Part shown: in pieces, positions 12,392-14,279 of the stretch | How positions within the stretch are numbered: position 1 is the stretch's first letter | How the letters are laid out: every line of letters starts with the position of its first letter | Assembly (NCBI GenBank): GCA_035873375.1 | Contig: JAYWMQ010000016.1 | Span: 1 to 50,655 of the forward strand | Length of the DNA: 50,655 nt | Reading direction: 5' to 3' | Source of the DNA: Nitrospirota bacterium | GTDB taxonomy: Bacteria; Nitrospirota; Thermodesulfovibrionia; Thermodesulfovibrionales; JdFR-85 | The notes under the pieces: model-generated | Databases searched by the model: none | Seen by the model: the letters and a program-made list of their open reading frames with translations, nothing else | What the model was told of the DNA's origin: nothing | Position numbers and translations under genes: made by a program

Positions 12392-12471
12392 GATGTCATT
12401 AAATGCGATCATGATAAATGATAGGTCTTTAATTGATTGGCCAATGGTTGGCTGAACGCTGTCGATTAATT

Positions 12472-12520
12472 TGTGCGTATAGTTGTTTGATGGCGTAATC
12501 TCTTTTAACGCACATTTTTT
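12472..12520 (+). promoter_or_regulatory. Possible structured leader / attenuator before the RRM gene
   Basis: TGTGCGT (12472-12478) can pair with ACGCACA (12508-12514), and six T residues follow at once (12515-12520), directly before the ribosome site GAGGGAAGG. A competing hairpin can form between GCGT (12493-12496) and the same ACGC arm. Mutually exclusive pairings of this kind are typical of attenuators or temperature-responsive leaders. The 29-base loop of the first stem makes it weak, so the call is tentative. Confidence 0.3.
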
Positions 12521-12534
12521 GAGGGAAGGATATC

Positions 12535-12795
12535 ATGAATATTTATGTCGGAAATCTGCCTTACGATGTAACCGAGGATGAGTTGAAAGCACTTTTTTCA
12601 GAGTTTGGAGAAGTAAGTACTGTTAACATTATAACGGACAAGTTTTCAGGGCAGTCGAAGGGGTTCGGATTTGTAGAAATGCCTAACGATTCAGAAGCAG
12701 ATGAAGCAATTAAAGCCCTGGATGGAAGAGAACTGAAGGGACGTAATATAAAGGTTAATCAGGCAAAACCTCGAGGAGAGCGCCCGCAACGCTGA
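12535..12795 (+). CDS. Bacterial RRM-type RNA-binding protein
   Basis: An 86-residue protein consisting of a single RNA-recognition motif and a short basic tail (KPRGERPQR). RNP2 is IYVGNL (residues 3-8) and RNP1 is KGFGFVEM (42-49), both with the aromatic residues that stack on RNA. The rest follows the beta-alpha-beta-beta-alpha-beta order. Such proteins (Rbp family) are best known from cyanobacteria and various Gram-negative bacteria, where several are cold-inducible RNA chaperones. The strong promoter and long leader agree with high or stress-regulated expression, as in cold-shock genes. It is monocistronic, followed by an imperfect hairpin. Confidence 0.92.
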   Translation: MNIYVGNLPYDVTEDELKALFSEFGEVSTVNIITDKFSGQSKGFGFVEMPNDSEADEAIKALDGRELKGRNIKVNQAKPRGERPQR

Positions 12796-13628: not shown

Positions 13629-14183
13629 TTATTCCGGTTTGTATCTCATCCCGGGTTCGGGATCTATTCCAAGGCTATCCATAACACGGTTGGTGTAGTT
13701 AAAATAACCAATGAGTTGTGCTGCGTCAAGGATGTCTTCGTCGGCAAATCCGGTTGCACGTAAAACTTCAACATCTGTTCTGTTGATTTCTTTAGGGGTC
13801 AGCGTTAATTTGGCTGCAAAGTCGAGCAGTTTTCTGGTGGCTGGATCAAGGTTGGCCTGGCGGTAATCCTCCTGAATTCTCGATACCTCGGCATCGTCTC
13901 TGATCTCTTCACGGAGATCGGATTCATGGCTCTCCATTCAGTAATAGCAGCCATTGAGCTTTGACACTACTGTAGCGATCAGTACCCGCTGCAGTTTGCT
14001 TAGACCTCCCGGGCTATCCATCATGTGGCGGTAAAGCTTCCTCCCGATTGCCATGGTCTCCGGGCGGAGGCTCTGGACTTTTACCAGATTAAGTACGCGC
14101 CCTGCTTTTGCGCGAGTCTCCTCGTAGATCTCTGCCAATAAACCATCAGCATCTTCTTCTGCTATCGTACGGATCCAGCTCAT
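13629..14183 (-). CDS. AhpD/carboxymuconolactone-decarboxylase-type selenoprotein (peroxidase-related, CxxU)
   Basis: Two frames, 14183-13941 and 13937-13629, are in phase and separated by one TGA at 13940-13938. Read through, they give a 184-residue protein of normal length for the peroxidase-related AhpD-like family. The TGA falls exactly where the family has the second cysteine of its redox motif. The product reads NGC-Y-Y-U-MESH, with Cys79, Sec82 and His86, so CxxC has become CxxU. No ribosome site precedes the ATG after the TGA, so a separate second gene is unlikely. A SECIS-like hairpin follows the TGA. Selenocysteine versions of AhpD-like proteins are known. The enzyme should reduce peroxides or act as a thiol-disulfide oxidoreductase. 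SD AAGGAGG precedes the start. A nonsense mutation is the alternative. Confidence 0.82.
13902..13940 (-). promoter_or_regulatory. Bacterial SECIS-like element with its UGA codon
   Basis: Reading on the minus strand, the TGA is followed by an 18-base spacer and then a perfect 6-bp stem, GATCTC / GAGATC, closing a 6-base loop CGTGAA. The apical loop begins 25 bases after the TGA, and a G is in its second position. This agrees with the published bacterial SECIS pattern as I remember it (apical loop about 16-37 bases after UGA, G among the first two loop bases). A competing 7-bp stem (ATGGAGA with TCTCCGT) can form directly after the TGA. Confidence 0.6.
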
Positions 14184-14279
14184 TGCTTTTTCCTCCTTAA
14201 AGAGTGAATCTCTCCAGCCAAAAGCTGGAGATTTCCGTTTAGCGATTTAGGGGTTTTTGATATATAACAATATTCTTAT

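Follow-up and report, generated by a model that had tools for sequence, protein, structure and literature searches.

A predicted AhpD-like selenoprotein of the TIGR01926 branch in a Nitrospirota genome

AhpD-like selenoproteins with a CxxU motif were described in 2005 from the Sargasso Sea, with 27 sequences (PMC1088965), and AhpD-like 1 and AhpD-like 2 selenoproteins were reported from the GOS data (PMC2398784). A 2026 review places the "AhpD-like protein, CxxU" in TIGR01926 and traces it back to the Sargasso Sea survey (PMC13188914). By description, this catalogued selenoprotein (example MCB9421940.1) shares the TIGR01926 assignment and the CxxU motif with the protein presented here, and both feature Sec at the position of the second Cys and a SECIS-like hairpin downstream of it. 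The two differ in host lineage, since the gene presented here occurs in Nitrospirota and in one Desulfobulbaceae MAG; a literature search for AhpD-like selenoproteins in the lineage of this genome yielded no report. The gene is a further member of a known selenoprotein family. The novelty implied by the preliminary description of this DNA does not hold, as Sec-containing AhpD-like CxxU proteins, including those of TIGR01926, are already catalogued (PMC1088965, PMC2398784, PMC13188914). The locus hence adds a well-supported Nitrospirota selenoprotein and leaves the known picture of selenoprotein families unchanged.

The AhpD protein of Mycobacterium tuberculosis features a proton relay of Glu118, Cys130, His132, Cys133, and His137 (PMC3141380). 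By motif spacing, Cys130, Cys133, and His137 correspond to C79, U82, and H86 of the protein presented here, whereas the counterpart of Glu118 is Val67. M. tuberculosis AhpD belongs to a different branch of the family, TIGR00777 (AhpD sensu stricto), against which the present protein reaches 26.8 bits compared with a cut-off of 191.95. The CxxC enzymes of TIGR01926, with solved structures 6k40, 2pfx, 2oyo, 3c1l, and 2prr, show near full-length homology to the present protein (E = 3.7e-30 for 6k40) and have the active-site spacing C-x-x-C/U-x3-H in common with it. These enzymes carry Cys where the present protein has Sec, and the three whose alignments were read, 6k40, 2pfx, and 2oyo, feature Glu instead of Val at position 67. 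Two further AhpD-related families, NF041238 (AhpD_rel_CFYUT) and NF053654 (YciW-related), are named (seleno)proteins by NCBIfam; the present protein scores far under both cut-offs, with 62.5 bits versus 175 and 30.1 bits versus 310, respectively, and hence belongs to neither family.

The window—the whole stretch of DNA analyzed, 50,655 nucleotides in length—is contig 16 of a 2.67-Mb assembly that is 99% complete. The gene is encoded on the minus strand, a point left unstated before, and reads from ATG to TAA with the TGA at codon 82 as the sole interruption (Table 1). A strong ribosome-binding site is located upstream of the ATG. The TGA is embedded in the motif C79-Y-Y-U82-M-E-S-H86 and occupies the position of the second Cys of AhpD. 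The read-through protein matches the Pfam family CMD (PF02627) at 6.9e-10, and its best match in NCBIfam is TIGR01926, "peroxidase-related enzyme" (3.8e-46; 157.1 bits compared with the curated cut-off of 81.8). This match covers residues 2–177 and thereby identifies the parts upstream and downstream of the TGA as one protein. The standard list of open reading frames contains only the downstream piece of 102 residues (13629–13937), starting from the ATG at codon 83; standard gene callers would hence truncate this selenoprotein gene to a fragment. In these respects the preliminary description is confirmed: it had placed an in-frame TGA at the second Cys of the AhpD motif, considered both flanking halves conserved-looking and in phase, and expected standard annotation to split or discard the gene. 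On the evidence as a whole, including the conservation and the selenocysteine machinery described below, the gene almost certainly encodes an AhpD-like protein that contains selenocysteine and belongs, within the carboxymuconolactone decarboxylase/AhpD superfamily, to the TIGR01926 branch.

Table 1. Positions of the AhpD-like selenoprotein gene and its elements in the window
Feature	Position	Strand	Remarks
AhpD-like (TIGR01926) selenoprotein gene	13629..14183	-	184 codons including the TAA stop; frame and profile matches
Ribosome-binding site AAGGAGG	14192..14198	-	similar sites 5' of the start codon in orthologues
TGA codon 82, read as selenocysteine (predicted)	13938..13940	-	invariant in 14/14 orthologues
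Cys79, partner residue in CxxU	13947..13949	-	sequence and alignment
His86, equivalent of AhpD His137	13926..13928	-	alignment and AhpD correspondence
SECIS-like hairpin	13902..13919	-	stem 13919-13914 with 13907-13902; loop CGUGAA 13913-13908

The TGA at codon 82 is present in all 14 assemblies (the window and 13 orthologues with 62–97% protein identity to its gene), and other stops do not occur in any of them; the scattered nonsense mutations in relatives that had been named as grounds against a selenoprotein are thus absent. In pairwise comparisons with five of the nearest orthologues, dN/dS stays below 0.1 both before and after the TGA, with dS being saturated for the more distant of the five. 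Both halves are, as judged by these substitution ratios, under strong purifying selection. Fragments as the sole output of gene callers would also be expected from a pseudogene or a sequencing error, with the TGA being an inactivating mutation or a miscalled TGC or TGT. The probability of such an origin is negligible: the same TGA recurs in 14 assemblies with protein identities as low as 62%, none of which has a further stop, selection acts on both sides of it, and its conservation in independent relatives excludes a decayed gene or a miscalled base. Position 82 is Cys in the three homologues of solved structure whose alignments were read (6k40, 2pfx, and 2oyo) and in nine of nine distant Cys paralogues from the phylum, as the selenoprotein reading had predicted.

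An ATG at codon 83 directly follows the TGA in the window and in most relatives—an arrangement that could also reflect two translationally coupled genes, one for an upstream peptide of 81 residues and one for a protein of 102 residues starting from ATG83. This is very unlikely, because codon 83 is GTC in the orthologue L025, which is no common start codon, and because the split would cut the catalytic CxxC motif that resides on a single chain in the Cys homologues. In addition, codon 83 is GTG in the orthologue L039, and no site resembling AAGGAGG is found 5' of ATG83, in agreement with the preliminary description.

Downstream of the TGA, the mRNA of the selenoprotein gene features a hairpin of 6 bp, GAUCUC-CGUGAA-GAGAUC, with the stem starting 18 nt and the loop 24 nt after the TGA, close to the 25 bases given earlier for the apical loop. 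The hairpin is intact in 14 of 14 orthologous sequences, and synonymous divergence along the gene has its deepest trough at the codons of the hairpin, with 0.10 in the stem versus 0.52 for the gene as a whole. With five more diverged representatives, equal conservation is reached by 36 of 200,000 randomly drawn seven-codon sets. All 66 stem cells in 11 sequences pair, and sliding the partner arm by one to three columns lowers the pairing from 100% to 18–52%. One double change from U-A to C-G is observed, with a U-G intermediate in another sequence; covariation alone is weak, as its level is reached in 83 of 500 shuffles. The folding energy is unremarkable for the composition (z = −1.14; an equally good fold arises in 28 of 200 shuffles). 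The hairpin hence stands out from chance by its conservation in all 14 sequences and its location in the synonymous-divergence trough, not by the energy of its fold. A search of Rfam at a permissive threshold gave no SECIS family at the hairpin, and Rfam may lack a fitting bacterial SECIS family. The position given beforehand for the hairpin is upheld; by position and conservation it qualifies as a putative SECIS element and a candidate SelB site.

The genome encodes selA (598 bits), selB in full length (378 bits, positions 1–579), a tRNA-Sec with the anticodon TCA (UCA; 73.5 bits), and selD, which scores 330 bits and carries a single in-frame TGA of its own. With all four components present, the organism has the complete selenocysteine trait, and the absence of selB or selC, which would have spoken against a selenoprotein, is not observed. 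The selD gene (L040:1501-2415 -; G000:C2:65053-65967) is itself a selenoprotein gene, with its TGA in a GUAGK motif. The locus features what is expected of a bacterial selenoprotein: an in-frame UGA where homologues have Cys, conservation of this UGA in orthologues whose sequence is under coding constraint before and after it, a SECIS-type hairpin shortly after the UGA as judged by conservation and position, and selA, selB, selC, and selD in the genome. Decoding of codon 82 as selenocysteine is strongly supported as a prediction from conservation and the presence of the machinery, and the probable AhpD-like CxxU selenoprotein proposed earlier is thereby backed by Cys homologues, conserved TGA, sel genes, and hairpin.

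A different decoding of the UGA is conceivable, as anaerobic bacteria including Nitrospirae carry selC*, a tRNA-Sec-shaped tRNA-Cys whose anticodon is UCA in some cases (PMC7609411). The genome does contain a tRNA-Sec-like tRNA-Cys with a long variable arm (L003), which scores 58 bits against RF01852; a diverged second copy is also present. Reading of the UGA as cysteine by such a tRNA is nevertheless very unlikely: the anticodon of L003 is GCA, likewise that of every copy in relatives called by ARAGORN, and the loop of the second copy also reads GCA, so neither tRNA should decode UGA 82. Furthermore, a proper UCA tRNA-Sec is present together with SelA and SelD. The first tRNA (L003:1501-1597; G000:C44:44398-44494 +) has a long variable arm and a GCA anticodon and matches the published selC* tRNA-Cys; of 61 related genomes, 33 give DNA matches to it, although the weaker matches extend over part of the tRNA only. 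The second copy (L097; G000:C44:3133-3230 +) is 78% identical and has an apparently diverged T arm.

In the proposed selenocysteine mechanism, SelB carrying Sec-tRNA(Sec) would decode UGA 82, with the hairpin that starts 18 nt after the codon as its guide. Cys79 and Sec82 would form the redox pair by analogy with AhpD, with His86 as its conserved neighbour. The selenolate of Sec82, which takes the place of Cys133, the catalytic second Cys in AhpD, would attack a peroxide or disulfide, Cys79 would act as the resolving thiol to give a selenenylsulfide, and a cellular reductant would reopen the latter. From the chemistry of the family, the protein is likely a selenium-boosted thiol peroxidase or disulfide reductase of the AhpD type; its physiological role is probably defence against peroxide or thiol stress.

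The Sec proteins lack the Glu of the proton relay, which AhpD sensu stricto carries 12 residues ahead of the first Cys: position 67 is Val in all 14 Sec sequences. It is Glu in 6k40, 2pfx, and 2oyo, and other Cys paralogues vary between Gln, Ala, Thr, Arg, and Glu. Val67 thus hints that the enzyme depends less on the relay when it contains Sec; the variation among the Cys paralogues keeps this alignment-based reading suggestive rather than conclusive. A bolder version is rather doubtful: the Sec proteins would form a separate clade of TIGR01926 that is committed to Sec, the latter having made the relay Glu dispensable (Val67 in 14/14 sequences), and would have lost the ability to work with Cys. 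The protein provides a compact natural test case for the idea that AhpD-type active sites depend less on an acid–base residue once they contain selenocysteine.

The distribution of the gene is patchy, with most of the 396 genomes of the phylum lacking a close match. The gene is present, again with this TGA as its one in-frame stop, in all five of the other genomes of the genus that were searched. Outside the genus, the TGA-bearing gene is found in the Nitrospirota genomes G048, G212, G321, G341, G357, G361, and G374, and in the Desulfobulbaceae MAG; the close relatives are, by name, Nitrospirota MAGs such as BMS3Bbin07 and SZUA-77. Plasmid homologues all stay below 60% identity, the best among the matches listed reaching ~35–37%, and the viral contigs searched gave no relatives. 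Among the matches listed from the genomes and plasmids searched, no Cys-containing orthologue exceeds ~37% identity. Neither selA nor a UCA tRNA is found in the MAGs G357 and G361, which carry the TGA gene and are ~91–92% complete; possible reasons are contigs missing from the assemblies or errors in binning.

A comparison of the flanks revealed no conserved operon partner. The neighbours of the gene in the window (YajQ family, sugar-kinase-like, and TolC-like) are conserved within the genus only, and none of the near neighbours is found in the available flanks of L038/L103, L039, L098, L099, and L104. On the G361 contig of the orthologue L098 (G361:C23:12000-31000), a neighbouring gene features a dockerin-like end; this gene may be of planctomycete character, and misbinning of the contig in G361 is possible. 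Elsewhere in the window, a Chlorobi-RRM RNA motif (RF01697, 50.1 bits) is located at 12431-12509 on the plus strand, here in a Nitrospirota rather than a Chlorobi genome. Directly 3' of it, at 12535-12795 on the same strand, lies a gene for a protein of 86 residues that reads as an RNA-recognition-motif protein.
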